Shown here piece by piece: positions 1 to 17,635 of a DNA stretch of 64,000 nucleotides. The first letter of the stretch is position 1, and each line of letters opens with the position of its first letter. Source of the stretch: Rhodococcus sp. HNM0563 (GTDB lineage Bacteria > Actinomycetota > Actinomycetes > Mycobacteriales > Mycobacteriaceae); NCBI RefSeq assembly GCF_012726195.1, contig NZ_JAASAF010000006.1, positions 62,001 to 126,000 on the forward strand, written 5' to 3'. The translations under genes and the position numbers were made by a program. The notes beneath the pieces are model-generated. The model was not told where the DNA came from. It saw only the letters and a program-made list of their open reading frames with translations, and did not search any database.

Positions 1-1266
1 GATGGTGGCGCATCCCGCTCCGGTGAACGCTAACACCCGACCGCGTGTCTTCCCGGACTGGACGACTGGGTGGGCAAGCAGCGTAAGCATGATGTCCTTC
101 GCGCATGTGCCGGAGCGCAACTGCCCCACCAGGCGTACCTGCACGACCTCGGGGACCTTCGTGAGGATCTCGCGGTTGTACCAGGAGTTGGCGATGTCAG
201 TTGCGCCGACACCGAATGCGAATGCACCGACAGCGCCCGCTGTGCACGTGTGACTATCGGTCCCGATGATGAGCTGAGACGGCGCAGCTACGTTCTCGAG
301 AATGTAGTTGTGGCAGATCGCCTCACTGCCGCCTCCGGGCAACGTGCCTACGAATGTTCCGCCCTTAGCCGCGGCGAATTCACGCTGACGCTCGTGGAGG
401 TTGCGAACCCGGCCCACCAGCGTCGGTCCGTCTGGCCGCCGCTCGAGAACCGCGCCGGCCAGGGACAGGTGGTCTTGGAAGAAGTAGCACGAATCCGGGT
501 CCGCCAACGGTGCCTCGTCACCGAATTGATGACTGAACATTTCCGCCGCCATCGGGGTGACGTATTCGTGTGAGAAGCGGACGTCAGTGTTGACGAAATA
601 CGACTCGCCTACGACGATAGATGCGTTCGGCGGACAGGGATTCGTCGCAGACAGATTCCTCTGGATGATCTTCTCGATGCTGTTCAGCGGACGACTCGCG
701 CCGAAGCGCCCTCCCGAGGCCTTGCCGGCGTCGACTGCAGGCCGCTGCCGATTGAAGCCGAACAGACCGCCCGAATCGATGATCGTACGCTCAACGTCGT
801 TGAATCGCCGATTAAAATCGGTCAGCGGGAGTTCCGCGCCCTCTAGAAGGGCGTTGAGTATCCCGAAGTCATCACACGTGATGATCCCCACATTGCGGCA
901 GTTCTGCTCGTAGATCTTCTCGAACGACCTCGCGAACACAATCTCGATACCGGCATATCGTTCCGCGTAGACCGCGTGCTCGCGGGAGGATCCACAGCCC
1001 TTCGACATCCCACTGACCACGATCTGGGGGCGGAGTTTACGTACGGCGGTCTCGTCGAAAACGTCGTCGCGCAAACCGAGATAGGCGAAATCGCCGAGTT
1101 TTTCGTCGTACCAGTAGCAACACCAGCCCGGGATAATCTCGTCGGTCGAGATGTTGTCGAGCAGCGGCGCGGCAAGATAGTCGGCGTAGCGGGATGGGTC
1201 CTGGTCAACCAACTGCCGACGGCGTAGGTCCGGATCTTCGGTGAGGAACAGTGCCGGACCGGTCAT
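1..1266 (-). CDS. Fused aconitase-superfamily hydro-lyase/isomerase, swivel domain first (partial)
   Basis: This frame is open from an ATG at 1264-1266 to the left edge (422 residues, no stop), so the C-terminus is missing. Residues about 30-170 form a LeuD-type swivel domain with the motif GCGSSREHA (90-98). From about residue 230 a LeuC/aconitase large domain begins, with FQDHLSL (263-269) and IGTDSHT (334-340). The cysteines that would hold the 4Fe-4S cluster lie beyond the edge. By family it should shift a hydroxyl group between adjacent carbons, as isopropylmalate isomerase or homoaconitase does. Standard aconitases carry the swivel at the C-terminus, and LeuC and LeuD are normally separate proteins. 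Swivel-first order is known in AcnB, but here there is no HEAT domain in front. It lies 34 nt downstream of the isopropylmalate-synthase-like gene, probably in the same operon and pathway. A TTG at 1299 is an alternative start. The substrate is unknown. Confidence 0.85.
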   Translation of the reverse strand, partial: MTGPALFLTEDPDLRRRQLVDQDPSRYADYLAAPLLDNISTDEIIPGWCCYWYDEKLGDFAYLGLRDDVFDETAVRKLRPQIVVSGMSKGCGSSREHAVYAERYAGIEIVFARSFEKIYEQNCRNVGIITCDDFGILNALLEGAELPLTDFNRRFNDVERTIIDSGGLFGFNRQRPAVDAGKASGGRFGASRPLNSIEKIIQRNLSATNPCPPNASIVVGESYFVNTDVRFSHEYVTPMAAEMFSHQFGDEAPLADPDSCYFFQDHLSLAGAVLERRPDGPTLVGRVRNLHERQREFAAAKGGTFVGTLPGGGSEAICHNYILENVAAPSQLIIGTDSHTCTAGAVGAFAFGVGATDIANSWYNREILTKVPEVVQVRLVGQLRSGTCAKDIMLTLLAHPVVQSGKTRGRVLAFTGAGCATI

Positions 1267-1300
1267 CCGAATGGTGCGCGGTGACGCAGTTGTTGGCAAG

Positions 1301-2539
1301 TCAGTGTTTCTGAGCAACGATCCGTCCGATCTGTTCGTCGGTCAACGGGCGGTCAGCGGCTTTCGCCAACGTCAGAACGTCACGGATGACGTCATCGGAA
1401 GCCGAGTAGCCATTGACTGAGAGCCAGTACTGGACGTTGCTGGCGCCTGACGCACGGTCGATCAGCACTTCCTGATGGCGCCCGAGGAGGCTCGCCGGCA
1501 CGCTTGAGTACACGTTGTCCATCAGCACCCGTTTGCCCTTGTTCGCTGCTTTCAGAATGGCGGAGGCGTGCACGCCGGCGCTGGTCTTGAAGACGTCGTT
1601 TCCCAGAGCTGGATAGTTGGCCGGAATCTCGATGCCTAGCATGGTGGCTACGCATTCGCCGTACGTCCGAACGGCCTCCAAATCGAACTGCTCACCGTGC
1701 TGTAGGGACCGGTTGACGATCAGTTGATCGATCGCGGTGTTACCGGCGCGTTCTCCGATGCCCAGCGCGGTTCCGTGCACGCGATCGCATCCCGCTTCCA
1801 ATGCAACCAGCGCGTTGATCAGAGCCAGCCCACGATCATTGTGGCCATGCCAGTCGAATTGCGCTCGGCAAGAACGAGATTCAAAGAATTCGATGGACCA
1901 GCGGACCAGCGCCCGGGTGGACGCCGGCGACGCCGCGCCGACCGTGTCGCACACAGTGATGCGGTCGACTCCCAAGTCGGCGGCCGCCGCATAGATTTCG
2001 CCGAGCACCTCGGGTGTGCATCGGGTCGTGTCTTCGAGCACCAGGACGAAGGCCACATTGGCCCTTCGGCACTGGAGGGCGGAATCGCGGAGTCGCTCGA
2101 CGACCGAGTCGACAGACCAATCTTCGACGTGCTGCCGGATCGGGCTGACACCGACGAACGCGTAGGCCTCGACCGCGGCTTGGGCCTCGTGCGCGACGTC
2201 GCAGATCGCCGCGATATCGGTTGGGTGGGTACGCCCGGCGAAGGCCGTGATCAGATGGTGTCCACTGTCGCGGACATACCGCATGATCTCGATGCACTCT
2301 TGTTTCGCAGCAGGACTCGCGCCGGGGAACCCGAGGTCCGCGGCGCGGATTCCTGATCTCACCATGTGGTCGACGAACTGCATTTTCGCCTCGAGTGGAG
2401 GGTTGAGCACATACGGCGCTTGGATCCCGTCCCGCAGCGTTTCGTCGAAGAAGAGATAATCCACCGGAGTTCGATGTTCGGCCGGATCCAGCGAACTCCA
2501 GTCGAATAGCTCGTCCGGGTATCGCATCGTTTGAGTCAT
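1301..2539 (-). CDS. 2-isopropylmalate/homocitrate synthase-like (HMGL/DRE-TIM) enzyme
   Basis: This 412-residue protein belongs to the DRE-TIM metallolyase family, which condenses an acyl-CoA (usually acetyl-CoA) with a 2-oxo acid. The signature DETLRDGIQ lies at residues 32-40, the metal-binding HGHN at 231-234 and GIGERAGN at 260-267. A later SAGVHASAILK segment resembles the substrate-lid region. It stops before any LeuA regulatory domain, so feedback control of the LeuA kind is not expected and the length is closer to homocitrate synthases. The ATG at 2539 overlaps the stop of the upstream reductase-hydrolase gene (ATGA), and GGAG lies about 9 nt upstream. With the next-door aconitase-like gene it makes the first two steps of a 2-oxo acid chain-elongation cycle. 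The oxo-acid substrate cannot be read from sequence. Confidence 0.85.
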   Translation of the reverse strand: MTQTMRYPDELFDWSSLDPAEHRTPVDYLFFDETLRDGIQAPYVLNPPLEAKMQFVDHMVRSGIRAADLGFPGASPAAKQECIEIMRYVRDSGHHLITAFAGRTHPTDIAAICDVAHEAQAAVEAYAFVGVSPIRQHVEDWSVDSVVERLRDSALQCRRANVAFVLVLEDTTRCTPEVLGEIYAAAADLGVDRITVCDTVGAASPASTRALVRWSIEFFESRSCRAQFDWHGHNDRGLALINALVALEAGCDRVHGTALGIGERAGNTAIDQLIVNRSLQHGEQFDLEAVRTYGECVATMLGIEIPANYPALGNDVFKTSAGVHASAILKAANKGKRVLMDNVYSSVPASLLGRHQEVLIDRASGASNVQYWLSVNGYSASDDVIRDVLTLAKAADRPLTDEQIGRIVAQKH

Positions 2540-4503
2540 CGCGGCGTAACTCCATCTCGGCACGACAACTCCGCGTGTGCGTCGAACTGGCGGAACACTT
2601 CGTCGGTTCGGCTGTCCATCAAGTAGTGATCGCCCTCATCGAGTTCGAAGCAGCGACCATCGCCCACGTTCGTCGCGACGAAACGCGAGGCATCCGGATG
2701 GGTGTTACCGTCCGTTCGCGCTGCGATGGTCAATGTCGGAACTGCCACTCTGGCGATCAGGTCGCCGGTCTGATCGGCGGCGAACGTCGTGATCAACTTC
2801 GCGTACCGGTATATGTTCTCGGCCGAGCGGAACGGCAACGACGTGTATTGGATGTAGTCCGGATTGGTGTCGTTGAGGAACGTCCGCACGGCGGCGTCCG
2901 TGTCGGCATCCTCCTCATTGCCGTTGTAGATCAAGTCGTAATACAGGGTCGCCAGATCCTGGTCAGCCGCGATTTCGTTCAGCACGTCGGTCAGGTTGAT
3001 CTCGTACGGGGTCTTGAGTGCGGCATCGCTGATGTTGAAACCGCCACTGAGCAGCGTCAACGACATTACCCGGGACGGTTCGTCGGCTGCGATCTGCAGC
3101 GCGATCTTTGCGCCGGTGCACCATCCGATGACGTGCGCACGATCGACGCCGAAATGGTCGAGCACCTCGACCGCATCGCGCGTGTGGCGTGCGACTGTGA
3201 TATCGGTTTTGTCGAGTGGAGCGGATCCCGGCAGATACCGCGTATCCCAAACAAAGAGGTCATACTTCGCGCTAGCCCGGCGAATGAAGGAGCGCCACAG
3301 ATCGACCGGGATTCCGAAGGCAGTCGCGATCAGCACCGCTTCGCGCGGTGCATCGGCCGGCGGCGTGCGGTACGCGCTAACAACGATTCCGTCCGATAGC
3401 GTTACCTGCTCCTCGGACAGGATCGTCGAGGCGAACTGTTCGTCGAGCTCCCGGATGTACGCTGCCGTATAGCCCTCGAGGTCTGATGCTGTACAGCCAT
3501 GCTGGAGGGGGATCGACCGGACGAAGTCCTTCTCGTTGAAAACGTAACTCTTGTAGAATTCGGCACGCTTGCCGATGATCTCGTCGAGCGGCGTCCGAAC
3601 GGGCGAAACCTCGCTGCGGACCTTGAACTTCTCGATCCCGAGCTTCGATTCGACGAGGTTGAAAGCCTCCGCCAGTTGGAACCCGTAGTCGGCTGACAGA
3701 TGAAAGATCGGCCCGCCCGCAAACTCGTTGGCGATGAGGTACCGGATGTCCTCGATCACTCCGTCGATCGGCTTGAAATTGACAATCATGCTGGGATCTG
3801 CAGAGAAAGTCGGCTCGACGTCGACCTTGTCGAGTGTGCGCCCGAGGAGGTATAGGTCGCGGATGAAGGCGTACATGCCAGTCTTGCTTCCCCCGGACCG
3901 CTTCGTCGACGACACACCGATGATCACTGATGGGCGCAGGATCGAGAAGGCCATTCCATGCTCGCGGCAGTACTCAGCTACGACGTGCTCGGCCTGGCAC
4001 TTCGTTTGCTCGTAACTGTTGTTGAACGGCCCGGCGGGATCGTGCAGCTGCTCGGGGACCGAGCCAGTCTGCGGACCGGCGGTATATGCCGTGGAAACGT
4101 ACACAAACCGCTTCACGCCAAGTTCGCTGGCCAGTTCGAGCGCGCGCCGCACACCCTCGACGTTCACGAGGGATATCTTCTCCGCCTTTCGCTTCTCGAA
4201 GTTCAGGTCGGCTGCGAGGTGCCAGAAGATGTCGATTCCGCGACCGCGGAGTGAGTCTCGTTGTTCCGCTTCAAGTCCCAGCCCTGGCGACGCCACGTCG
4301 CCGAGAACGATCTCGATGTCTGCGGCGATGCGGCGGGGTTCAGAATAGGCATCGGCGGCAATCTGAAGCTGGCCCTGCAGCCGGGCGGCCGCTTCATCGA
4401 CCGACGACCCTCGCACCAACGCGACGACGGAATGCTCGCCCGCTTGGTCCAGAACGAAATGTGACCCGATGAAACCGGTTGCACCGGTGACGAAGTACTT
4501 CAT
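2536..4503 (-). CDS. Fusion: thioester-reductase-like extended SDR plus alpha/beta hydrolase
   Basis: A 655-residue two-domain protein. Residues 1 to about 350 are an extended SDR of the thioester-reductase/male-sterility type (NAD_binding_4-like). They show GATGFIGSH (7-15), a serine in VSTAY (137) and the catalytic pair Y164/K168 in SYEQTK. Residues about 365-650 are an alpha/beta hydrolase whose nucleophile elbow reads GWCTG (460-464), so the nucleophile would be cysteine C462 rather than serine. H626 in GDHYLM is the likely catalytic histidine. Family knowledge suggests NAD(P)H reduction of an acyl thioester or a 3-hydroxyl/keto group, and thioester hydrolysis or acyl transfer by the second domain. 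No adenylation or carrier-protein domain is present. Start and stop overlap neighbours by 4 nt on both sides, so it is translationally coupled within the operon. Confidence 0.8.
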   Translation of the reverse strand: MKYFVTGATGFIGSHFVLDQAGEHSVVALVRGSSVDEAAARLQGQLQIAADAYSEPRRIAADIEIVLGDVASPGLGLEAEQRDSLRGRGIDIFWHLAADLNFEKRKAEKISLVNVEGVRRALELASELGVKRFVYVSTAYTAGPQTGSVPEQLHDPAGPFNNSYEQTKCQAEHVVAEYCREHGMAFSILRPSVIIGVSSTKRSGGSKTGMYAFIRDLYLLGRTLDKVDVEPTFSADPSMIVNFKPIDGVIEDIRYLIANEFAGGPIFHLSADYGFQLAEAFNLVESKLGIEKFKVRSEVSPVRTPLDEIIGKRAEFYKSYVFNEKDFVRSIPLQHGCTASDLEGYTAAYIRELDEQFASTILSEEQVTLSDGIVVSAYRTPPADAPREAVLIATAFGIPVDLWRSFIRRASAKYDLFVWDTRYLPGSAPLDKTDITVARHTRDAVEVLDHFGVDRAHVIGWCTGAKIALQIAADEPSRVMSLTLLSGGFNISDAALKTPYEINLTDVLNEIAADQDLATLYYDLIYNGNEEDADTDAAVRTFLNDTNPDYIQYTSLPFRSAENIYRYAKLITTFAADQTGDLIARVAVPTLTIAARTDGNTHPDASRFVATNVGDGRCFELDEGDHYLMDSRTDEVFRQFDAHAELSCRDGVTPR

Positions 4504-5954
4504 TGCGACTCCTGCCTATCGACGATCAGCGCAACTGACTCAATGCCATGCGCCTGGAAAAGCGACCGGCCGATGTCGTCTGCTACGACGGTGACTACGT
4601 GAGGAATGCTCTGCAGGCCGACCGTCGTGTGCACGATGTCGGCGAGGCTGTAGATGTTGGAGACAAACGCGTTCTCTGGTGAATTCGGTTGTAGCCGGAA
4701 GCTCGACGTCAGTTTCGGATACGCCTCGAGGCCGAGAACCAGCTTCCGATCGTCTCCGACCACATCCGCCCACGTCAGGATGTGGTCGCGGATGGCGTCG
4801 AACTCGGGGCGGTGTTTCAGCCCGGGCTCCACGCCAGTAGCGAAGATCAACTTGTCGAACTCGTGGATGTTGCCCTTGGAATGTACTGCCACGCGGTTGC
4901 TTTCGCTTAGGTACTCGATGCGGTCGACAGGCTCTTCTTCGTAAACGGACATCTTGTCGAGCTGGCGCACCCGGCTGAGATACTCCGAATTCGCCGGGGA
5001 GCGCCCGGCCCGAAAGACCGAAGACAGGATTCTGAGCCGCTCGTCATCGGATACGTTCGCGTTGTAAGCGACGAGAGGATCGAGTAGATCGGCTGCGGGT
5101 GAGCCCGTCTCATTCGGAAAGGTCGCCGTGTCGTTCCGGCCTCTCCAGAGATCGAAGAAGGTGTCGCCGCGGGGAAATGGGCTGCGGCTGAAGATGGCGA
5201 CGGATTCGCATCCAGCATCGATCGCGGCTGTGGCATTATCGAATCCGCTTGCGCCGGCGCCGATCACCGCAACGTCCTGACCGACCAAGTCTCCGAACGG
5301 GATATCCTCCCAGGCGCCCGTATATGCTGATTCAGGAAGGCCGCGTACGAGCTCCGCCGGGGCGGACCACCGACCGGCGGACGTAATTCCCGTAGCGAGG
5401 CAAACCCGCCGGGTGTAGAGCACCTTGGAAGCAGCATCGCCTATGCGTTCGGTCGCGACTTCCAGACAGGACTCCGACGCGTTCCACCGAATCGACGTGA
5501 CCCGTGTCTCGTTCCGGGTATCTACATCGATCATGCGCCGGAACCAAGCGAGATACTCACGCCAGTGCTCGGTCGCGATGAACGTGATCTGGTCGTATTG
5601 CTCCTTGGTATAGGCAGCGCAGAACCATGCCCTGAAAGACAACAGAGGATTGAAGCATTCGGGCCCGGGGACGTTTTTGGGGGTCCGCAGGTGGGTCATT
5701 CGCGCGAAGGTCGACCATGGACCGGATTGGTCGGCTTTCTGGGCATCGACGGCGACGATGCGCCGCACCCCACGCAGCTTCAAACTGTAGGTGAGCGCGA
5801 GTCCGCTCTGACCGGCACCGACCACGACGACGTCGTGAATCTTCTCTCCGGCGTCCGTCACACCTGGAGGAACCCAGCTCTGTTTCGAATAGAATCGGTA
5901 TTCATCAAGCCAGTCTCGAATCGCCATCTCGAGTTCGTGAATCGTGTGAAACAA
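4500..5954 (-). CDS. Class B flavin-dependent monooxygenase (FAD/NAD(P)H)
   Basis: This 484-residue flavoprotein has two Rossmann motifs, GAGQSG (46-51) for FAD and GAGASG (232-237) for NADPH, plus ATGV (about 367-370). That is the class B monooxygenase plan of FMO, BVMO and N-hydroxylating enzymes. The internal MTHLRTPKNVPGPE segment occurs in a poorly described branch of FAD-dependent hydroxylases. No signal peptide or membrane segment is visible. It starts at TTG 5954, preceded by AAGGAG (5961-5966) at 6 nt, and its stop overlaps the next ATG. Beside an aminotransferase and a chain-elongation pair, a plausible job is N- or C-oxygenation of an elongated amino or oxo acid, which is inference. 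Confidence 0.8.
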   Translation of the reverse strand: MFHTIHELEMAIRDWLDEYRFYSKQSWVPPGVTDAGEKIHDVVVVGAGQSGLALTYSLKLRGVRRIVAVDAQKADQSGPWSTFARMTHLRTPKNVPGPECFNPLLSFRAWFCAAYTKEQYDQITFIATEHWREYLAWFRRMIDVDTRNETRVTSIRWNASESCLEVATERIGDAASKVLYTRRVCLATGITSAGRWSAPAELVRGLPESAYTGAWEDIPFGDLVGQDVAVIGAGASGFDNATAAIDAGCESVAIFSRSPFPRGDTFFDLWRGRNDTATFPNETGSPAADLLDPLVAYNANVSDDERLRILSSVFRAGRSPANSEYLSRVRQLDKMSVYEEEPVDRIEYLSESNRVAVHSKGNIHEFDKLIFATGVEPGLKHRPEFDAIRDHILTWADVVGDDRKLVLGLEAYPKLTSSFRLQPNSPENAFVSNIYSLADIVHTTVGLQSIPHVVTVVADDIGRSLFQAHGIESVALIVDRQESQ

Positions 5955-5991
5955 AAGAACTCCTTACCAAGTCGATAAGCACTCGAGGCGG

Positions 5992-7128
5992 CTAAATGGC
6001 AACGCCGAGTTGCAGTTCATCGCGCCAGCGCTGCGACGGAGAATCGTAACGCTCCACAGCCATTACTTCCGCTATGGGGCAATCTATCGTGACCTGACGT
6101 GGTAGCGAATTGAAGCCTGAATGCTCTTGCAGAAGTCGCCGATAAAGATCCTGGACTGCGCGGTGTCGTTCGATGGAGCTTTCATACTTGCTACGCAACA
6201 CCGGATCGATCTCGTTCCAGATGACACCGGCAATTCGTGACCGCTCCGCGGGTTGATGCACGCGGATTTCGTCGATCAACTGGTGTAATTCCGGATAGAA
6301 TGGGACACGGTTCGCATCAACGAGTTTTTGTGCGATTTCATCACGCCCGAATCGGAAGTTCAACGACATTCCGTTGTCCACGTATTCGATATAGTGCCAG
6401 ATCGAAGGCGGGAAGTACACCATGTCACCGGGGTTGATAATGGCATCGTAGGCGCCTAAATAGCGGAAGAAATCGAGTTTCTCCTCTGGCGCCATGTTTT
6501 GGATCAACACCTTGCTGAAGTTCATCGCCGGCGAGATCTTCTCGGTCGCGGAGAGCGGAACCATGACGACGCGCTTTCGGCCAAACACCTGGTAGAGGAG
6601 CACGTTACGGAAGTCGCCGTCGAAGTGGAGATGCGCGTAGTTGCCCTTGTTCGCGACGAACATGAACGACACCAGCGGTTCGCCGGAACCCGATGACCTG
6701 CAGTACTCCGGTACTCCGATCATGTCGGCGACCGGCTTCGGTGTGTGGTACTCCACGCAGAGCAGGTCCGTGTCAGGAGTCTTGCGGATATGTGCGAAGT
6801 ATTCAGCGAGTGGCATTTCGAAAATATCGTTGCGGACTTTCTGACTTAGACCGTTTTGGATCCGGTTGCCGCTTTTGACGCGACTCAGTGGACTGGTGTA
6901 GTTCCGCTGCACCTGGATCAAAAGATCGCCGAATGTGTCGATAGCGTCCTGCTCAGTAAGGACATTGGCAATCGGCTCGGAATTTCGGCCGTTTTGGATG
7001 ATGACCGGCGTTGCCGAATCTACGTATTCCTGAAATACAGCCCTTCCTGGACTATTCAAAACAGGAATGTTTCCAAGCGTTGGTGGGACTGAGTCGACAA
7101 CCCGCTTAGATATGGAAGCTTGAGACAC
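5992..7128 (-). CDS. Cupin-like/JmjC-type non-haem iron oxygenase
   Basis: A 378-residue cupin_8/JmjC-like protein. The metal-binding facial triad is visible: H168 and D170 in LHFDGD, and H245 in SIWHYIE, followed by SLNFRF typical of the closing strand. Relatives are 2-oxoglutarate-dependent hydroxylases of amino acids, peptides or proteins. GTG 7128 is chosen because GGGGAGG (7137-7143) sits 8 nt upstream. In-frame ATGs at 7152 and 7164 would lengthen the N-terminus but have no obvious ribosome site. It is the first gene of the leftward operon (37 nt to the monooxygenase) and diverges from the aminotransferase across about 200 bp. Part of the gene is A+T-richer than the core genes (25 of 60 bases are G+C at 7021-7080), which fits acquisition from elsewhere. 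Confidence 0.75.
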   Translation of the reverse strand: MSQASISKRVVDSVPPTLGNIPVLNSPGRAVFQEYVDSATPVIIQNGRNSEPIANVLTEQDAIDTFGDLLIQVQRNYTSPLSRVKSGNRIQNGLSQKVRNDIFEMPLAEYFAHIRKTPDTDLLCVEYHTPKPVADMIGVPEYCRSSGSGEPLVSFMFVANKGNYAHLHFDGDFRNVLLYQVFGRKRVVMVPLSATEKISPAMNFSKVLIQNMAPEEKLDFFRYLGAYDAIINPGDMVYFPPSIWHYIEYVDNGMSLNFRFGRDEIAQKLVDANRVPFYPELHQLIDEIRVHQPAERSRIAGVIWNEIDPVLRSKYESSIERHRAVQDLYRRLLQEHSGFNSLPRQVTIDCPIAEVMAVERYDSPSQRWRDELQLGVAI

Positions 7129-7328
7129 TAGACCATCCTCCCCAAAGGACATAGTGCAATTCATCAGCTGGTCGAAAGTAGCAGACCTGCCTCCGGAGCC
7201 AAGGCCGAAGGGCCGCAATGTGAATGAGATCACTTTGTGCGCGTCACTGCACATCTGTGTCTACGCTAGGCCTCATCCTGCGGCCGATGGCGCCGAGGTG
7301 GGGGGCTTCACAGGAGGAATAGAGTATA

Positions 7329-8549
7329 GTGGGGGGCTACAGTGGCGCGTCCAGGTCAGGGTCGAGGTCGGTCTCGCCGGGCATGCGCGATCTCGCGCAC
7401 ATAGCTCAGTCACCGATTCGCCAGTTGCTTGCGCTGACCGCGAGCCGGTCAGACGTGATCTCCTTGGCCGGCGGATTGCCGGCACCCGAGGCATTCGATG
7501 TGCGTGGGATCGGCGAGGCGTTCGCTCATGTGCTTGCCACCGACGGTGCGGCCGCTCTGCAGTACTCGCCCACCGAGGGAAACGAGGTGCTTCGCAGTAT
7601 CTTCGCGGAGCGATCCAGGGCGCGCGGCCTCGCAGCTTCTGCGGGAACGGTATTGGTGACCTCGGGTGCCCAGCAGGCGCTCACGCTCCTATCGATGGTA
7701 TTGCTTGAGCCGCGAGACGTCGTCGTGGTCGAAGCGCCGACATACCTTGCTGCACTTCAGTGTTTCCAGATCGCTGGTGCCCACATCATTCCGGTCAGTT
7801 CGGATTCTGACGGAATCGATATTGAGTCACTTACCGAGGTCGTCGCCCGTGAGCGGCCCAAGATGCTGTACCTGGTTCCTACGTTTGCCAATCCGACAGG
7901 GCGCTCGGTATCCGATGCACGTCGCGCCGCGATCGCCGAACTAGCCGATCGATTCGGTTTCTGGATCGTCGAAGACGATCCGTACAGCGAGCTTCGCTAC
8001 GCAGGTGGACCGCAGGCGGCAGTGGGGTCTCACGAAGGAGCCGACGGCCGATCGATCTATTGCGGAAGTCTGTCGAAAGTTTGTGCCCCGGGGCTTCGTT
8101 TGGGGTGGATGCACGGACCCGCCAAGGTGATCGCCGCCGCGTCACTGGTGAAGCAGGCCATGGATTTGCACACCTCGACGATCGACCAAGCCGCGGCCGC
8201 GCACTATCTGCAGCACGCCGACGTCGATCAGCAGATTGGAAATTTGCGATCGATGTATCAGCTGCGCCGCGATGCCATGTCCGCTGCGCTGCATCGCCTG
8301 CTGCCCGGCACAGAGTGGACCGAGCCGAGGGGTGGAATGTTTGTTTGGCTGCGCCTCGGCTGGGGAGTGAACACCACCGACCTGTTGCCGCGAGCGATCG
8401 ACGCCGGTGTCGCTTTCGTACCCGGCGAGAGCTTCTATGCCACGTGCCCGGACACATCGACCCTTCGGTTGTCTTTCACAACCTATCACCCTGACTTGAT
8501 CGACGAGGGTATCGCCCGCCTCTCCGGAGTCTTGAATGTCGCTGGCTGA
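7329..8549 (+). CDS. PLP-dependent aminotransferase, 2-aminoadipate (LysN/KAT) type
   Basis: A 406-residue fold-type-I aminotransferase. Early signatures are ISLAGGLPAPEAFD (about 44-57) and LQYSPTEGNEVLR, both typical of 2-aminoadipate/kynurenine-type aminotransferases and the catalytic half of MocR regulators. NPTG, DDPYSELRY and the PLP lysine K250 in GSLSK follow. There is no N-terminal helix-turn-helix, so it is an enzyme and not a MocR regulator. The GTG at 7329 has AGGAGG (7312-7317) 11 nt upstream, a slightly long spacing; the ATG at 7383 is an alternative. In context it would convert the elongated 2-oxo acid made by the divergent operon into an amino acid, as LysN does in the alpha-aminoadipate pathway. 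Substrate specificity is inferred. Confidence 0.85.
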   Translation: MGGYSGASRSGSRSVSPGMRDLAHIAQSPIRQLLALTASRSDVISLAGGLPAPEAFDVRGIGEAFAHVLATDGAAALQYSPTEGNEVLRSIFAERSRARGLAASAGTVLVTSGAQQALTLLSMVLLEPRDVVVVEAPTYLAALQCFQIAGAHIIPVSSDSDGIDIESLTEVVARERPKMLYLVPTFANPTGRSVSDARRAAIAELADRFGFWIVEDDPYSELRYAGGPQAAVGSHEGADGRSIYCGSLSKVCAPGLRLGWMHGPAKVIAAASLVKQAMDLHTSTIDQAAAAHYLQHADVDQQIGNLRSMYQLRRDAMSAALHRLLPGTEWTEPRGGMFVWLRLGWGVNTTDLLPRAIDAGVAFVPGESFYATCPDTSTLRLSFTTYHPDLIDEGIARLSGVLNVAG

Positions 8550-8598
8550 CAGGGAGTCCCGTTGCGCAAACGAGCACCTGAACTGAGTGGAGTCCTCT

Positions 8599-10836
8599 GT
8601 GTTGACCTATCTCGCTAACCTCGCCCATCGACGGCCCAAACGGATACTCGTCGGGGCGGTCCTATTCCTACTGGTCGCGGGCGCGATCGGTGCACCAGTG
8701 AATTCACTGCTGGCCGCAGGTGGTTACAACGACCCGACCTCGCAGTCCCATTTGGCCTCCGACATCCTCCAGAAGCATTTCGATCGCGGGTCCTTGCCTG
8801 TGGTCTTCGAAGTGGTCGCTCCCGGTGGCGCGGACTCGCCTGCAGCACGTAGCCGGGCCGTCGAGGTCGAACGCGTCCTTCGTGAGTCGAATCACATACG
8901 GCAGGTTGTGTCTTATTGGACCTCACCGCCGGCCATCGCAGCCGGATTGAAGAGCAAGAACGGTCAGATCGGGCTGGTCGCCGCCGAGGTCGAGGGCAGT
9001 GACGCTCAAGCGCCCGAATGGGCGCGCGAGATTGCGGACGAAATCCCGACCAGCGCCGATGGTGTGATCGTTCGAGCGGGCGGAACGGCGATTCTGTACG
9101 ACCAGGTCGACAAGCAGTCGGAGAAGGACCTCCTCCTTGCTGAGGTGATTACCGTACCTCTGACGGGATTGGTGCTGCTGTGGATCTTCGGTTCAATCGC
9201 CGCGGCCTTCTTGCCTCTGGCGATCGGGCTCTTCGCCATCGTCGGGACAACCGCGATTCTACGTGGGTTGACCATGGTCACCGATGTGTCGATCTTCGCG
9301 ATGAACCTGACCACGGCGATGGGGCTTGCCCTCGCCATCGACTACGCGTTGTTCATTCTCAACCGGTATCGCGAGGAAATCGCCAATGAAATTGACCGTG
9401 AGCAGGCGTTGGCTCGCACGGTCAACACGGCCGGTCGAACGGTGCTCTATTCGGCGGTCACTGTCGCGTTGTCGCTAGCTGCGATGGCGGTGTTCCCGAT
9501 GTACTTCCTGCGGTCATTCGCGTATGCGGGTCTCGCGGTTGTCGGTCTCGCGGCGTTCGCCGCGGTCTTCATCGCGCCAGCTCTGATTGCGGTGCTGGGG
9601 CCTCGCGTGGAAGCCGGGCGGGGGATGAATCGCACTCGGTTGCAGGCTCCCGTAGAAAAGTCGTTCTGGTACCGCACCGCCCTGCGTGTCATGCGTCGCC
9701 CCGTGGCTGTCGGTGCGGCGGTCATCGCGTTGTTTCTGGTGGTCGGCTCACCGTTCCTCAATCTGAACCTGGGCTACCCCGACGACCGGATTCTGCCGCC
9801 GTCCCATAGCGCTCGCGTGGTTGGAGACGACATCCGGACAGAGTTCGAGAACAACATCGCCGACGCGGTGACGGTCGTCCTACCAGACCTGTCCGGAGTC
9901 ACCGACGAGGACTTGAGTGCGTATGCCTCCGACCTATCCCGGGTCGATGGCGTGTCTGCGGTGACGTCACCCACGGGCGTCTTCCTGCGGGGTGAGCGCG
10001 TCGGGCCCGCCATTGGCCGAGCCGGGGCCGATGGTGAGCGTGCTTACCTGACTATCGACACTCACGCAGATCCGTTGAGCGACGCCGGCGAAGCGAGCCT
10101 GGAGGCGCTGCATCGCGTTCCGGCGCCAGCCGAGACGATGTTCACCGGTTTGGCGCAGTGGAACAGTGACAACGTAAACGGCATCGTTGACCGACTGCCG
10201 CTCGCACTTGGAATCATTGCAGTGACCACATTCGTCATGCTGTTCCTGTTCACGGGAAGTGTGATTCTGCCGGTCAAGGCGCTCCTGATGAACCTCCTGT
10301 CGCTATCGGCGACCTTCGGTGCGATGGTTTGGATCTTCCAGGAGGGAAATCTCGGTGCACTGGGGACCACGTCGATCGGATCGCTGGTGGCGAACATGCC
10401 CGTGCTGATGTTCTGCATCGCGTTCGGTATCTCGATGGACTACGAGGTATTCCTGCTATCGCGAATCCGTGAACAGTGGCTTGCGTCCGGAAAGACCGCC
10501 GCCGACAACGAACGTGCCGTCGCCGTCGGCCTCGCTCGGACCGGTCGCCTCGTCACCGCCGCGGCGATGATCATGGCAATCGTCTTCGCGGGGCTCCTAA
10601 TCTCCGAAGTGTCGACAATGAGGATGTTCGCACTTGGACTGGCATTGGCAGTGCTCGCGGACGCAACGCTTATCCGTGGCCTTCTTGTGCCTGCCTTCAT
10701 CAAGCTGGCCGGGCGTGCAAACTGGTGGGCCCCAGCCCCGCTGGTCCGTCTGCATACACGATTCGGACTCTCTGAGGAGATCCCACGTCCCAGATTGGAT
10801 AGCGACGTCGCGCATTCTGAACCGTCCCGAGTCTGA
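8599..10836 (+). CDS. MMPL/RND-family transporter (probable exporter)
   Basis: A 745-residue inner-membrane protein with the duplicated MMPL plan: one N-terminal membrane helix, a soluble loop, a helix bundle with IDYALFILNRYREE, a second loop, and a second bundle with SMDYEVFLLSRIREQW. The Asp-Tyr pairs in both bundles are the proton-relay residues of this family. It is short compared with mycobacterial MmpL proteins (about 950) and near the size of MMPL proteins found in actinomycete antibiotic clusters (ActII-3-like). GTG 8599 is preferred because GGAG lies 6 nt upstream; an in-frame GTG at 8587 has no good ribosome site. It sits 49 nt after the aminotransferase and is probably cotranscribed. 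Export of the product of this locus is the simplest reading. Confidence 0.88.
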   Translation: MLTYLANLAHRRPKRILVGAVLFLLVAGAIGAPVNSLLAAGGYNDPTSQSHLASDILQKHFDRGSLPVVFEVVAPGGADSPAARSRAVEVERVLRESNHIRQVVSYWTSPPAIAAGLKSKNGQIGLVAAEVEGSDAQAPEWAREIADEIPTSADGVIVRAGGTAILYDQVDKQSEKDLLLAEVITVPLTGLVLLWIFGSIAAAFLPLAIGLFAIVGTTAILRGLTMVTDVSIFAMNLTTAMGLALAIDYALFILNRYREEIANEIDREQALARTVNTAGRTVLYSAVTVALSLAAMAVFPMYFLRSFAYAGLAVVGLAAFAAVFIAPALIAVLGPRVEAGRGMNRTRLQAPVEKSFWYRTALRVMRRPVAVGAAVIALFLVVGSPFLNLNLGYPDDRILPPSHSARVVGDDIRTEFENNIADAVTVVLPDLSGVTDEDLSAYASDLSRVDGVSAVTSPTGVFLRGERVGPAIGRAGADGERAYLTIDTHADPLSDAGEASLEALHRVPAPAETMFTGLAQWNSDNVNGIVDRLPLALGIIAVTTFVMLFLFTGSVILPVKALLMNLLSLSATFGAMVWIFQEGNLGALGTTSIGSLVANMPVLMFCIAFGISMDYEVFLLSRIREQWLASGKTAADNERAVAVGLARTGRLVTAAAMIMAIVFAGLLISEVSTMRMFALGLALAVLADATLIRGLLVPAFIKLAGRANWWAPAPLVRLHTRFGLSEEIPRPRLDSDVAHSEPSRV

Positions 10837-10839
10837 TCC

Positions 10840-10895
10840 CGATTCCTTCCTTGAGGAGGATGCAGGTCATGCCCAAGCCTTACCCAGGCCGAGCA
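10840..10895 (+). pseudogene. Relic of an IS3-type orfA start
   Basis: A strong ribosome site (GAGGAGG) is followed by an ATG at 10869 that reads MPKPYP, the usual first residues of IS3-family OrfA proteins (compare MPKPFP in the orfA at 12311). The frame stops after ten codons. Nothing further of that transposase continues here, so this looks like the 5' tip of a deleted insertion sequence. The match is short and the call is tentative. Confidence 0.35.
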
Positions 10896-10906
10896 GGCTG
10901 AGCGTG

Positions 10907-11095: not shown

Positions 11096-11963
11096 TCACC
11101 GAAGGCCGTGCGCTGCCACGAGATGAGGCCTCTGAGCGAGCAACGTCTCGAGCCTGCCCTCCGGCCAGAGGTCGATATGCGGCGCTACTGCCGACTCATT
11201 GAGCCGGTCGACCCATGCAACCGCATCCGACGAGAACCGTCCGCTCGTGACAATCAGTAGACCTCGAACAACGGGTGGCTGCCAGAGCCTCACTGCAGCA
11301 ACGTTGGCGGTATTCTCCGCCATCCCAACAGATTTCGAGAGCCAGTGCTTCGCCGGGACGATCACCCGTTCATGTCTGACGCCGCCGGTGCCATCACGCA
11401 ACACCCGGTCCAGTGCAAGGTCTCTGCCACGATCCGGCGCGCGCGTCCTGGTGAGCCATGTGACATTCTCATGTTCGGGAAACTCCCGGAGGAGATCGTA
11501 GAGCAAGCGCTCGAATGTTTCGTCGCCGATCTGATCCCAGCGTAGGGCCGTGCTGGCCGCTCCTGTGAGCCGGCCTGCAGCCGCCTGAGCGAGATCGAAC
11601 TCCGGGACGGGGAAGGGGTCTGTGTCGGGCAGTGATCCGGCTTCGATGCCGGGTTTGATTGTTGGCCAGTCAAACTCGTAAACATCGTGCCAGTCGTGGC
11701 CCTCACCAAATCGCAAATGACGGTGAAGGTCCGCCCACCGCCCCCTCGCTGCGCGGTATCACCAATCAGCCTGTCAATCTCGGCAAAGCTGGCGACAAGT
11801 CGATCGATCTCGTCACCCTCGACTCGGTTTGTAGAGTCCCGAGGTATCGAAGCCAACACGTGGGGCAGCATCGTGTCCACCAAGGCGGTGAGGTGCTGCA
11901 ATCGTTCACGAGCTGCTCGGCGACGCGCTCGGTTCAACCGGTATCGGTACTGGGCCAGGTCCT
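11096..11963 (-). pseudogene. Frameshifted, N-terminally truncated Mrr-like restriction endonuclease
   Basis: Reading leftward, the first part (RYRLNRARRRAARERL to about IGDTA) is in one frame. The sequence then continues sensibly (WADLHRHLRFGEGHDWHDV) in another, so one base is gained or lost near 11735-11755, within a G-rich run. The C-terminal part holds a Mrr_cat/PD-(D/E)XK-like core: FERLLYDLL, DRGRDLAL and VPAKHW, where Mrr-type nucleases have E, D and QxK. Such enzymes cut modified foreign DNA. The 5' end is cut off by an IS3 relic at about 11965 and no start codon remains. Both defects make a functional product unlikely, unless the frameshift is a sequencing error and an internal TTG at 11716 is used. 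Its place among mobile-element debris fits a decayed defence gene. Confidence 0.6.
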
Positions 11964-12239: not shown

Positions 12240-13023
12240 AGAGACTGCCCCCGGTTTGGTTGACATCTGATCTGTGAGGACCGCTCCTCGCAGATGAAAG
12301 GATGTGCCCCATGCCGAAGCCGTTCCCCGCGGAGTTCCGCCGCGACGTCATCGCTGTCGCACGCAAGGGCGAGGCGCCGTTGCGGCAGATCGCGAAGGAC
12401 TTCGGAATCTCCGAAGGATGCCTGCATCGCTGGTTGAAGATCGCCAACCGCGAGGACGGCATCGACACCGGAACCAAGGCCACGAGCTCGGACGAGTCGG
12501 CGGAACTGCGAGAAGCCCGCAAACGGATCAAGCTGCTCGAGCAAGAAGCCGAGGTCATGCGCCGTGCCGTCGCCTACCTGTCCCGGGACGTCAACCCAAA
12601 ATGATGTTCCCGCTGGTCCTCGACCTCGCTGCTGACGGAGTGCCCGTCACGGTGACCTGCCGGGTTCTCGAATTCTCCACCCAAGCCTTCTACAAATGGA
12701 AGCAGGACCCGGTCACGCAACGTGATTGGGACGACGCACACCTGATCAACGCTGCCCGCGAGATCCATGCCGATGATCCCGCTTTCGGCTATCGCTTCAT
12801 CGCCGATGAGCTACCGGATCGCGGCATCATCGCTGGCGAAAACAGGGTCGCGCGACTGTGCTCACAAGAGCGCATCTGGTCGGTGTTCTCCAAGAAGCGA
12901 GGCCTCAGCAGGAAGGTCGGCCCGCCGGTCCACGACGACCTCGTCGACCGCCAGTTCACCGCACAGCGACCCAACGAGGTCTGGCTGACCGACATCACCG
13001 AGCACCGCACCGACGAAGGCAAG
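12240..13023 (+). mobile_element. Truncated IS3-family insertion sequence (5' part)
   Basis: The left end begins near 12240 with an IS3-like terminus (GAGACTGCCCCCGGTTTGG), followed by orfA and the first part of orfB. The element stops abruptly at 13023, where the terminal repeat of a second, oppositely oriented IS3 element begins. The remaining half of orfB is not found on the far side, so this is a deletion junction and not a clean insertion. Confidence 0.75.
12311..12604 (+). CDS. IS3-family transposase OrfA (helix-turn-helix)
   Basis: A 97-residue OrfA with an HTH_Tnp_1-type domain (PAEFRRDVIAVARKGEAPLR, DFGISEGCLHRWLK) and a C-terminal leucine-zipper-like helix (ELREARKRIKLLEQEAEV). It binds the ends of the element and, in intact relatives, is fused to OrfB by frameshifting. 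ATG 12311 is chosen because AAAGGA lies at proper distance; ATG 12302 is too close to it. The stop overlaps the orfB start (ATGATG at 12601). The element is truncated, so this protein has no complete partner here. Confidence 0.85.
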   Translation: MPKPFPAEFRRDVIAVARKGEAPLRQIAKDFGISEGCLHRWLKIANREDGIDTGTKATSSDESAELREARKRIKLLEQEAEVMRRAVAYLSRDVNPK

Positions 13024-13026
13024 TGA
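12601..13026 (+). pseudogene. Truncated IS3-family transposase OrfB
   Basis: 141 residues of an OrfB with the HTH_21 region (EIHADDPAFGYRFIADEL) and the start of the rve integrase core. It ends just after the first catalytic aspartate in WLTDITEHRTDEGK. The stop codon TGA at 13024-13026 is supplied by the terminal repeat of the neighbouring IS. The second aspartate and the glutamate of the DDE triad are missing, so it cannot catalyse transposition. Confidence 0.85.
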
Positions 13027-13049
13027 ACCGCCCCGGCATGTCCGGAGAC

Positions 13050-13985
13050 CTACTGATGTGAGAACTCAGCGACGAGCTGAGTCCCGTGGTGACGGTAGTA
13101 GAGGGCTTCGAACTCGGCCGGCGGCAGGTCACCGCAGTGCTCGTACAACCGCCGATGGTTGAACCAGTCGACCCACTCGAGGGTGGCGACTTCTACCTGG
13201 TCAACGGTCCGCCACGGCCCCTGCGGCTTGATCAACTCGGTCTTGTAGAGACCGTTGATCGTCTCCGCGAGGGCGTTGTCGTAGCTGTTGCCGGTGGCCC
13301 CGATCGACGCGTCGATACCGGCCTCGACGAGCCGGTCGGTGAAGGCCAAAAATGTGTACTGCGACCCGCGGTCGTGGTGATGTATCAGCCCCGACAGGTC
13401 GTCGATTCCTTCCCGTTTCCTGGTCCAGATCGCGTGCTCGATCGCGTCGAGAACCAACCCTGACGTCATCGACGTCGAGGTGCGCCAACCGACGATCCGG
13501 CGGGCATTCGCGTCGATCACGAACGCCACGTACACCCACCCAGACCACGTCGACACATACGTGAAATCCGCTATCCACAACACATTTGGTGCATCTGGGC
13601 AGAACTGACGCTGCACCAGGTCGTCGGGCCGGTCGGCCTGAGGATCAGCGAAGGTGGTCCGCTTCCTCTTGCCGCGACGGGCGCCCTCGAGCCCCAGTTC
13701 CCGCATCAGTCGTTCGACCGTGCAGCGGGCCACCTCGATGCCCTCGCGGTGGCATTGCAGCCACACCTTGCGGGCGCCGTAGACCGAGTAGTTCTCTCGG
13801 TGGACCCGGGCGATCTCGGGCTTGAGTTCGGTGTCGCGGATCTGACGATTGGAGGGCTGCCGCCGGCGGGTGCAGGCGTCGTAGTAGGTGGACGGCGCGA
13901 TCTTGCATCCGTGTGCTGTGAGCACCCGGCAGATCGACTCGACGCCGTACTCCTGCTTGTGTTCGTCGATGTAGTCGACGATCAC
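13050..13985 (-). CDS. IS3-family transposase OrfB (DDE integrase type)
   Basis: A 311-residue OrfB. An HTH_21 region (VHRENYSVYGARKVWLQ) is followed by an rve core with the catalytic triad visible: D in WIADFTYV, D in HHHDRGSQYT and E in NALAETINGLYK. The GTG at 13985 overlaps the orfA stop (GTGA), the usual set-up for translational coupling or a -1 frameshift fusion in IS3 elements. It ends with TAG at 13050-13052, inside the left terminal repeat region. It is complete and probably active. Confidence 0.88.
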   Translation of the reverse strand: MIVDYIDEHKQEYGVESICRVLTAHGCKIAPSTYYDACTRRRQPSNRQIRDTELKPEIARVHRENYSVYGARKVWLQCHREGIEVARCTVERLMRELGLEGARRGKRKRTTFADPQADRPDDLVQRQFCPDAPNVLWIADFTYVSTWSGWVYVAFVIDANARRIVGWRTSTSMTSGLVLDAIEHAIWTRKREGIDDLSGLIHHHDRGSQYTFLAFTDRLVEAGIDASIGATGNSYDNALAETINGLYKTELIKPQGPWRTVDQVEVATLEWVDWFNHRRLYEHCGDLPPAEFEALYYRHHGTQLVAEFSHQ

Positions 13986-14302
13986 CGATTGCGGCGGTCG
14001 AGTTCCGCCGCGAAGAAAGTTGATGCTGATTTCAGGATTTCGTTGGCACGCTTGAGTTCTCGATTCTCGGCACGCAGCTTCCGGAGCTCTTCGGCTGCGT
14101 CGGTCGTCATCCCGGGACGCTGGCCCCGGTCGACCTGGTTCTGGTTCACCCAGTTCGCCAACGTCTGTGTGCTCCCGATCCCCAGCTTCTCGGCAACCGA
14201 CCTGATGGCTGCCCACTGCGAGGAGTGCTCGGGGCGGACCTCGGCGACCATCCGCACAGCCCGCTCACGCAGCTCGGCTGGGTACCTCTTCGAACCTGAC
14301 AT
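13982..14302 (-). CDS. IS3-family transposase OrfA
   Basis: 106 residues. The N-terminal HTH (SKRYPAELRERAVRMVAE, with SVAEKLGIGSTQTLANWV) is followed by a leucine-zipper-like segment (AEELRKLRAENRELKRANEI), the standard IS3 OrfA layout. ATG 14302 is chosen over upstream in-frame starts because SGSKRYP is the conserved beginning. The OrfA stop overlaps the OrfB start by 4 nt. Confidence 0.85.
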   Translation of the reverse strand: MSGSKRYPAELRERAVRMVAEVRPEHSSQWAAIRSVAEKLGIGSTQTLANWVNQNQVDRGQRPGMTTDAAEELRKLRAENRELKRANEILKSASTFFAAELDRRNR

Positions 14303-14353
14303 GACTCCATCCTTCCCAAGAGATGAAGTCTCCGGACTCACCGGGGCGGTTCA

Positions 14354-17400: not shown

Positions 17401-17635
17401 CCCGGCTGTAGAGATCGAGGATCGAGTCGTAGACGAACTGGTGCGCGGGCTTGTAGAAGTCGCCCGGGTGAAGCACCTCGAGGACATCGGCGATGGCGTC
17501 CTTGCTCAGCAGCATGCCGCCGAGCACGGACTGCTCCGCCACGTAGTCGTGGGGAGGCTGACGCCCGAAATCGGTCTCGGGTTCATCGGGCGGTCCGGAA
17601 TATTCGGAGTGGCCTCGATCGTCCACCACTGCCAA
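14453..17635 (-). CDS. dnaB: Replicative DNA helicase DnaB carrying two inteins
   Basis: 1060 residues, of which 462 are helicase; DnaB proteins are normally about 450-480. The hexameric helicase unwinds DNA at the replication fork. Extein parts are residues 1-235 (N-terminal primase-binding domain and the start of the RecA-like core), 507-673 (continuing STLSMDF, with IVIDYLQLM and VIAVCQLNRG) and 1001-1060. Intein 1 interrupts the Walker A loop (GVGK, then S) and intein 2 interrupts RESG/SLEQDADM, another conserved catalytic loop. Without protein splicing the enzyme would be inactive. Gene order rplI-dnaB matches mycobacteria. The long spacer upstream carries many DnaA-box-like 9-mers. Confidence 0.97.
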   Translation of the reverse strand: MAVVDDRGHSEYSGPPDEPETDFGRQPPHDYVAEQSVLGGMLLSKDAIADVLEVLHPGDFYKPAHQFVYDSILDLYSRGEPADPVTVSAELDRKGELKRIGGPAYLVTLTQTVPTAANAGYYAEIVSEKAILRRLVEAGTRIVQYGYAGSEGQDVAEVVDRAQAEIFDVSERRTSEDFVPLEELLQPTMDEIDSIASRGGISVGVPTGFAELDELTNGLHAGQMIIIAARPGVGKALALDTVLPTPNGWTTMGEVSVGDVLFDAHGEPTRVVAATEIMHGRPCFDVVFSDGTVLVADAQHQWRTSDGAVRTTAELAATVDADHAVTNAAPLRTPAADLPVPPFTLGAWLGGPSADPHVHMRVEGEGGCTEALMALGAHIPTAYLRASQEQRRDLLAGLLDAGGTVDGDGTIRFASDCARLVEDVAELLSGLGHACTVDGDAVAFETGDDVFVLPSKALLHKECRRPVPVERRIVAVRPVEPVPVRCVEVDGEHMYLAGRAMVPTHNSTLSMDFMRSCSIKHGMGSVIFSLEMGRTEIVMRLLSAEAKIKLGDMRSGRMTDDDWTRLARRMSEISEAPLFIDDSPNLTMMEIRAKARRLKQKHDIRLIVIDYLQLMTSGKKVESRQQEVSEFSRSLKLLAKELEVPVIAVCQLNRGPEQRTDKKPQVSDLRESGCLPASTRILRADTGAEVTLGELLATGEQPLVWSLDERMRMVARPMTKVFPSGRKEVFRLRLASGRQVEATANHPFLTVDGWMPLGELTTGGRVAVPRALPAPIDMVTSSEDEIVELALQAVADAAVPARAFALPKDQVAALLCHVWEDSGLLAWDVDAQQAMIRYSTADRRFIDDLAVLLLRIGVFSQITETASGYDLRVTDPDGQAVFLHDVGAHGTAAQWVLTQLGPTLTRRSVDGVTPELEESLGRLLAVERFTPSELVGAGAPRSSLAEVAGVLGEADIDMVATNNVHWDEIVSFTSLGEQDVFDGTVPGTHNFVADGVSVHNSLEQDADMVILLHRPDAFERDDPRGGEADLIVGKHRNGPTATITVAHQLHLSRFVDMARG
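14636..15616 (-). other. DnaB intein 2 (class 1, Cys1), 327 residues
   Basis: Covers residues 674-1000 of the precursor. It starts with Cys in CLPASTRI, has the block B TxxH-type motif EATANHPFLTVDGW, and ends in HNFVADGVSVHN followed by Ser of the C-extein. The central region (about 780-930) has the size of a reduced homing-endonuclease domain but lacks clear LAGLIDADG motifs, so the endonuclease is probably dead. The insertion site RESG/SLEQD is a known DnaB intein site. Confidence 0.88.
16118..16930 (-). other. DnaB intein 1 (class 3 features: Ala1 and W-C-T), 271 residues
   Basis: Covers residues 236-506. It begins with Ala (ALALDTVLP), so the usual N-terminal Cys/Ser nucleophile is absent. 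It has W302 in ADAQHQW, C486 in VRCVEVDGEH and T504 in VPTHN, the W-C-T set that defines class 3 inteins, in which the block F cysteine starts splicing. It splits the Walker A motif GVGK/ST. No homing-endonuclease motif is seen. Confidence 0.85.

Follow-up and report, generated by a model that had tools for sequence, protein, structure and literature searches.

The left end of the window (the whole 64,000-nucleotide stretch of Rhodococcus sp. HNM0563 analysed here, G000:C50:62001-126000, from a genome of 5.54 Mb) carries part of an 11-gene biosynthetic cluster, which is cut in half by the window edge and continues into the DNA to its left. We favour, with modest confidence, the reading that this cluster was acquired horizontally and makes and processes homotryptophan (2-amino-4-(indol-3-yl)butanoate). 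Its core would be a known kind of chemistry, the homologation of an amino acid, probably aromatic, with a substrate that is probably new and finishing enzymes that are unusual as a set. The argument starts from the gene families, their order and overlaps, a duplicated trpAB, a four-gene cassette that recurs in other genomes and a phenylpyruvate-supply link in one family of relatives; from these, we infer the reactions, the substrate and the product. According to PMC12961565 (2026), homologated tryptophan has not been found in nature (what we say of papers cited by PMC number refers to the passages of them that were available). No paper on homotryptophan biosynthesis was found in our literature search, judged by titles and the start of abstracts, with subscription journals mostly outside its coverage.

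In the proposed route, the extra TrpA and TrpB would supply tryptophan, which the aminotransferase would convert to indole-3-pyruvate. The synthase would condense this 2-oxo acid with acetyl-CoA, the isomerase would shift the hydroxyl group, and the dehydrogenase would oxidise and decarboxylate the intermediate to 4-(indol-3-yl)-2-oxobutanoate, which the aminotransferase would re-aminate to homotryptophan. An adenylation-carrier (A-T) didomain of the non-ribosomal peptide synthetase (NRPS) type would then activate the amino acid as a carrier-bound thioester, from which the reductase half of a reductase-hydrolase fusion would release an alpha-amino aldehyde (or alcohol), while its Cys-type hydrolase half would edit, release or cyclise. 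A JmjC-type oxygenase and a flavoprotein would oxidise the released product, and an MMPL protein would export it.

The four-gene cassette and the second trpAB pair

A preliminary description of the window had proposed a biosynthetic locus of 2-oxo acid chain elongation and amination, which is supported by the gene families and by a recurring quartet. All seven reading frames it described were found, each with its stated family (Pfam-type domain search). The minus-strand operon comprises nine genes, from the cupin gene to the A-T didomain gene, and the aminotransferase and MMPL genes diverge from it on the plus strand. The quartet consists of a 2-isopropylmalate/homocitrate-synthase-like enzyme (1301..2563, minus strand; HMGL-like, E 9e-38), an aconitase-like isomerase (Aconitase_C and Aconitase, the small swivel domain preceding the large domain; 1..1317, minus strand, with 439 of its 670 residues in the window), an isocitrate/isopropylmalate-family dehydrogenase (minus strand; Iso_dh, E 8.5e-79) and a class I/II (MocR-like) aminotransferase (7329..8549, plus strand; Aminotran_1_2, E 4e-36). 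The DNA left of the window was taken as L006 (C50:44001-64000; window position = L006 position - 18000), the last 2 kb of which are identical with the window start; the whole isomerase gene lies at L006:17305-19317. The preliminary description had looked to this side for an isocitrate/isopropylmalate-type dehydrogenase and for carrier proteins, and both are there, the dehydrogenase at L006:16274-17308 and a carrier in the A-T didomain at the operon end.

Between the genes of the operon, overlaps of 17 nt (isomerase/synthase), 28 nt (synthase/fusion) and 4 nt (fusion/flavoprotein) and a 37-nt gap (flavoprotein/cupin) occur in the window, and left of base 1 4-nt overlaps join A-T to TrpA, TrpA to TrpB and TrpB to the dehydrogenase, for which a possible GTG start at L006:17308 would give another 4-nt overlap with the isomerase. 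A promoter and terminator scan returned 0 promoter-like sites, and terminator-like sites were no commoner than in shuffled sequences.

The quartet recurs elsewhere. A tblastn search of plasmids with the synthase retrieved the Streptomyces sp. KN37 plasmid NZ_CP139046 (57%), on which the synthase, an aconitase-family protein and the dehydrogenase stand in a row and the aminotransferase lies about 12 kb away; the available passages of PMC11085741 tie no compound to this KN37 cluster. At E 1e-160, a sample of 392 genomes from a single genus (that of G336, with large genomes, presumably Streptomyces) gave the isomerase in 9, and among 394 sampled genomes of the class it was seen in its own genome only. 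In these genome samples at most four candidates per genome were scored for the fusion and the synthase, three for the isomerase and six for TrpA, so misses are possible. The 10 resulting comparison regions (20-41 kb each) therefore contain the isomerase (nine regions) or the synthase (KN37) by selection, whereas the other cassette members were not selected for. All four genes occur together in each of the 10 regions, with identities to the present cluster of 55-60% (synthase), 64-66% (isomerase), 55-60% (dehydrogenase) and 51-54% (aminotransferase), that is, 51-66% overall; in G1379, the aminotransferase is 3.4 kb from the dehydrogenase. A-domain matches were present in nine of the 10 stretches (none in G1077, and just a 199-residue piece in G1282), several of them in large NRPS or NRPS/polyketide synthase (PKS) genes. 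In contrast, the fusion, the flavoprotein, the cupin, the MMPL protein, TrpA and TrpB gave no tblastn match at 1e-8 in any of the 10 regions. The locus is therefore a recurring cassette with add-ons seen next to it here alone, and the idea of a single recurring set holds for the quartet and not for the fusion, flavoprotein, cupin and MMPL genes. Two further synthase relatives (L018 and L019, 37%) were not counted as cassettes: in the 18 kb around them, an aconitase-like match (30%) lies near one, and no dehydrogenase or aminotransferase match at 1e-4 was found near either.

Among the add-ons, the second trpA and trpB, set into the operon with 4-nt overlaps, would provide the homologation genes with a dedicated tryptophan supply. 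TrpA (L006:14251-15072, minus strand; TIGR00262, 256.9 bits against a cut-off of 102.35) and TrpB (L006:15069-16277, minus strand; TIGR00263, 605.9 bits against 392.45) both meet the curated family cut-offs and keep the motifs LELGxxFSDPxADGP, HKTN and ETGAGQHG, which we take to be catalytic. Another adjacent trpB and trpA are found on contig C1 of the same genome, with 58% and 31% identity to the cluster copies. In the plasmid collection, most of the best TrpA matches listed (41-46%) belong to Enterobacterales and Aeromonas and two to Deinococcus, and among the 394 genomes of the class only the own genome and one other (45%) have a match at E 1e-45 or better. Since the best plasmid matches come from other groups and the class sample is nearly empty, the cluster TrpA does not look like the usual TrpA of the lineage.

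Residues and supply genes bearing on the substrate

The co-occurrence of an isopropylmalate-synthase-like enzyme, an isomerase and an isopropylmalate-dehydrogenase-like enzyme in one operon is as in the hph/hty type of aromatic homologation, and we consider it quite probable, from these families and the residues below, that the cassette homologates an aromatic 2-oxo acid. The synthase keeps the motifs RDG, HGHND and GIGERAGN. Its pocket was read from a MAFFT alignment anchored on 6KTQ, using the five positions discussed in PMC12961565, which are Ala73, Asp157, Ala159, Met186 and Ser242 in HphA, His, Arg, Thr, Ser and His in homocitrate synthase, and Leu, Glu, Ser, Asn and Glu in isopropylmalate synthase. 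The window synthase has Ala109, Val173, Val175, Thr203 and His263, and the same five residues are found in nine of the 10 relatives, KN37 differing by one (Cys for Thr). Alanine at the position of HphA Ala73 is common to all 11 cassette synthases, as opposed to Leu in two of two leucine-type and His in two of two homocitrate synthases in the PDB, while Val173 stands where the other classes have Arg or Glu. At the two positions that tell most, the pocket thus differs from both the leucine and the 2-oxoglutarate pattern. The other four HphA positions are not matched (Val, Val, Thr and His against Asp157, Ala159, Met186 and Ser242); among HphA enzymes, Asp157 and Met186 are poorly conserved, unlike Ala159 and Ser242 (PMC12961565). 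Because Ala109 alone matches, this pocket test suggests an hph-like way of working in an enzyme that is not an hphA orthologue.

The dehydrogenase has a hydrophobic ILLG in 11 of 11 cassettes where homoisocitrate dehydrogenase has Arg, and an isomerase loop, WCCYWYD, is identical in all 11. Against the best NCBIfam leucine models listed, the synthase reaches 170.8 of 517 bits and the dehydrogenase 277.9 of 393, and the isomerase reaches 283.1 of 385 bits for an aconitase/dehydratase large-subunit family, among the models listed. The leftward extension therefore does not look like an ordinary leucine or lysine pathway, and the analogy with the alpha-aminoadipate route that had been drawn is not supported, since the His and Arg of homocitrate synthase at the 2-oxoglutarate-binding positions are replaced by Ala109 and Val173. 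Readings as alpha-aminoadipate, homocitrate or leucine enzymes were rejected on both grounds, the missed cut-offs and the differing pocket residues.

A second line of evidence comes from the genes that accompany the cassette in its relatives. A prephenate dehydratase (286 bits, cut-off 219) is encoded in the G1282 cassette stretch and also in those of G1106, G1058 and G1077 (80-93%), and none was found in the other six (E up to 1). Genome-wide, each of these four genomes has two prephenate dehydratase matches, one of them in the cassette stretch; among the remaining five genomes, four have a single match and G1105 has two, neither on the cassette contig. In the own genome, the single match lies about 290 kb from the cluster on the same contig, and none lies in the cluster. 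These observations suggest that phenylpyruvate is the substrate of the cassette in the prephenate dehydratase family and, by the same logic applied to trpAB, that indolepyruvate may be the substrate here; we regard indolepyruvate, with tryptophan as its source, as a rather probable substrate. Besides the cassette and the extra prephenate dehydratase, the stretches of this cluster family (L034/L035 and those of G1106, G1058 and G1077) encode a class C beta-lactamase-like protein and have two-component genes, and the family possibly makes a homophenylalanine peptide.

Among characterised systems, the cyanobacterial hphA/hphB/hphCD genes of phenylalanine/tyrosine homologation (PMC12961565, PMC6562525) share the synthase, isomerase and dehydrogenase and the alanine at the synthase specificity position, the alanine being read from the published residue table; they differ in that a dedicated aminotransferase and trpAB lie in the present cluster and in the predicted substrate, indolepyruvate. 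The echinocandin homotyrosine genes combine an isopropylmalate-synthase-like enzyme, an aconitase, a dehydrogenase and a transaminase, followed by hydroxylation by a 2-oxoglutarate-dependent oxygenase, but they are fungal and feed a multimodular NRPS, and the available passages mention neither trpAB nor a reductase-hydrolase fusion (PMC7778625). The homoleucine pathway of mycoplanecin (MypK/MypL), reconstituted in vitro, is likewise a 2-oxo acid elongation within an actinobacterial NRPS cluster; it acts on aliphatic substrates, with an isomerase subunit fused to an aminotransferase and with LeuB and LeuC drawn from primary metabolism (PMC10817943).

Proposed release, finishing and export

The A-T didomain gene (L006:12404-14254, minus strand; TIGR01733, 336.9 bits against a cut-off of 317.4) is the last of the operon and lies 3.7-5.6 kb to the left of base 1; the earlier remark that no NRPS was in view holds within the window and not for the operon as a whole. 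One A domain is seen in the operon. Its adenylation code, hand-read on the core motifs as D-S-L-I-I-G-G-V-A-K, was used only for the amino-acid-type Asp (FD). As compared with a minimal A-T-R synthetase, the A and T domains are present, and the putative reductase domain, recognised by Pfam and YxxxK but below the TIGR01746 cut-off, is on a separate protein. In one-module synthetases such as ATRed, adenylation, carrier and thioester reductase domains are reported to turn a single amino acid into an amino aldehyde, and these aldehydes can pair up to pyrazines; Phe was used there, and Trp and Tyr gave minor products (PMC7586950). In the present cluster, the putative reductase is instead part of a fusion with an alpha/beta hydrolase that has a Cys elbow. 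Judging from these domains, release as an aldehyde or alcohol seems fairly probable.

The fusion (2536..4503, minus strand) joins a thioester-reductase-like domain (NAD_binding_4, E 4e-40, with YxxxK present; TIGR01746, just 111 bits against a cut-off of 213) to an alpha/beta hydrolase (Abhydrolase_1, E 2e-16) with a Cys-type nucleophile elbow, GWCTG. No close relative outside the own genome was found among 298 sampled genomes of the order or 18 of the genus. A scan of genome contigs gave one locus, matching the reductase half (30% over residues 2-210), and in the plasmid collection Mycobacterium avium pS2b (35%) has the sole relative whose match spans 80% or more of the query at a single place, with the elbow kept as GWCAG. 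The predicted MMPL-family exporter (8587..10836, plus strand; MMPL, E 3e-76) is 48% identical to the MMPL protein beside that fusion homologue, and the fusion and MMPL pair was found once elsewhere, on this plasmid, without the cassette. The pS2b stretch (NZ_CP076860, L014, 14306-27053) encodes the MMPL protein, an AMP-binding enzyme, the reductase-hydrolase fusion, a methyltransferase, an ATP-grasp protein and two aminotransferases; it differs from the present cluster in having no cassette or trpAB match at 1e-4, with the ATP-grasp and methyltransferase genes instead. The fusion and MMPL genes may thus be a second portable unit, joined here to the homologation cassette.

The two-Rossmann, monooxygenase-like flavoprotein (4500..5954, minus strand) had been called a class B flavin monooxygenase. 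Both GxGxxG Rossmann motifs are present (residues 46 and 232), but what we take to be the class B fingerprint, FxGxxxHxxx(W/Y/F), has no match in this protein, the nearest stretch beginning YTG at residue 211, and the class B label is therefore not supported. The flavoprotein could oxidise nitrogen or carbon. The cupin (5992..7254, minus strand; Cupin_8/JmjC_2, Cupin_8 E 3e-15) has an HxD motif (HFD at residue 210) and matches PDB chains of JMJD5 and FIH (E 4e-7 to 2e-5), so it is likely to catalyse a 2-oxoglutarate-dependent hydroxylation. The plasmid matches listed for these two proteins (one partial match at 31% and others at 31-34%) were not informative. A far more speculative idea, to which we give little weight, is that homotryptophan aldehyde closes on indole carbon 2, for which a six-membered ring is geometrically possible. 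The cluster would then follow a new route to amino-tetrahydrocarbazoles or carbazoles, in which the fused Cys-type hydrolase would act as the cyclase and the two oxygenases would finish the product.

Alternatives, genomic setting and significance

Several points weigh against the homotryptophan pathway. The synthase, isomerase, dehydrogenase, aminotransferase and reductase half all fall under the curated NCBIfam cut-offs listed. The prephenate dehydratase link rests on one cluster family, since the four clusters have further genes in common, and counts as one association rather than four. In the Ala73 series of HphA, activity with indolepyruvate was highest in the Ala73-to-Leu mutant rather than in the Ala enzyme, at 5.3% of what the wild type shows with its own substrate (PMC12961565); alanine therefore marks at best an aromatic pocket and not an indole pocket. 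Finally, the fusion, flavoprotein and cupin had no close characterised relative in the genome, plasmid and PDB searches, which makes their steps the weakest part of the proposed route.

A possible, though clearly less probable, alternative is that phenylpyruvate (or 4-hydroxyphenylpyruvate) is the 2-oxo acid that the cassette lengthens, giving homophenylalanine or homotyrosine, presumably as in its relatives, and that TrpA and TrpB make tryptophan as a separate building block or precursor. Indeed, the five pocket residues are the same in the relatives with the added prephenate dehydratase, so these residues do not separate tryptophan from phenylalanine. However, two amino acid blocks would need a second activating enzyme besides the one A domain of the operon, and the cluster lacks a prephenate dehydratase of its own. 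We consider it unlikely that the cassette extends a non-aromatic hydrophobic 2-oxo acid, with tryptophan used independently: mycoplanecin biosynthesis is an established case of alkyl homologation with a LeuA-like synthase and an aminotransferase (PMC10817943), but Ala replaces the Leu of leucine-type synthases, and aromatic supply genes adjoin the cassette both here and in one family of relatives. Less likely again is a TrpB turned to non-indole beta-substitution, whose product, another beta-substituted alanine, would then be homologated; TrpB enzymes can be promiscuous, but an intact-looking TrpA with its catalytic motif adjoins this one, as expected for indole made from indole-glycerol phosphate. 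Least probable is a leucine, lysine (alpha-aminoadipate) or homocitrate pathway, whether ordinary or duplicated, whose neighbours are unrelated to it, as the family-level similarity of synthase, isomerase and dehydrogenase is set against curated cut-offs missed by wide margins, the replaced 2-oxoglutarate-reading Arg and His and the gene overlaps that tie these enzymes to trpAB, the A-T didomain and the reductase.

The horizontal gain suggested earlier fits the base composition, since the G+C content of the 11 cluster genes (60.9%) is lower than that of both flanks (66.8% for L006:1-11200 on the left and 65.5% for window 16001-64000 on the right). The mobile DNA that had been placed beside the cluster is present, more precisely at about 12.3-14.3 kb: two adjoining transposase-type gene sets (HTH_21, rve, HTH_Tnp_1) on opposite strands, at 12302-14341, lie between the cluster and a dnaB-like gene. 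By eye, the segment after the MMPL gene (10854-10900) looks similar to the beginning of the transposase frame at 12302 and is perhaps an insertion-element remnant; it is followed by a gene with an Mrr-like restriction endonuclease domain (11096-11716, minus strand). The dnaB-like helicase gene (14453-17635, minus strand; 1060 aa) contains an intein splicing domain and a LAGLIDADG-like domain, and a second insertion in this frame looks possible by eye near residues 240-510. To the left, beyond the A-T didomain gene, lie an HD-domain gene (L006:11207-11794, plus strand) and then an MFS gene. This HD-domain gene and another on the opposite strand (L006:3266-3889) bracket MFS, class II aldolase, amidohydrolase, GntR and 2-hydroxyacid dehydrogenase genes, which may make up a catabolic island.

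If the homotryptophan reading is true, the operon tying trpAB to a homologation cassette would provide candidate enzymes for homotryptophan, and it would directly test the statement on homologated tryptophan in nature made in PMC12961565, whose authors try to stretch HphA to other substrates, indolepyruvate among them. More generally, the comparison reveals a portable cassette of four homologation genes that may be retuned when the precursor-supply gene beside it (prephenate dehydratase or trpAB) is exchanged, so that substrate predictions for other clusters become testable.

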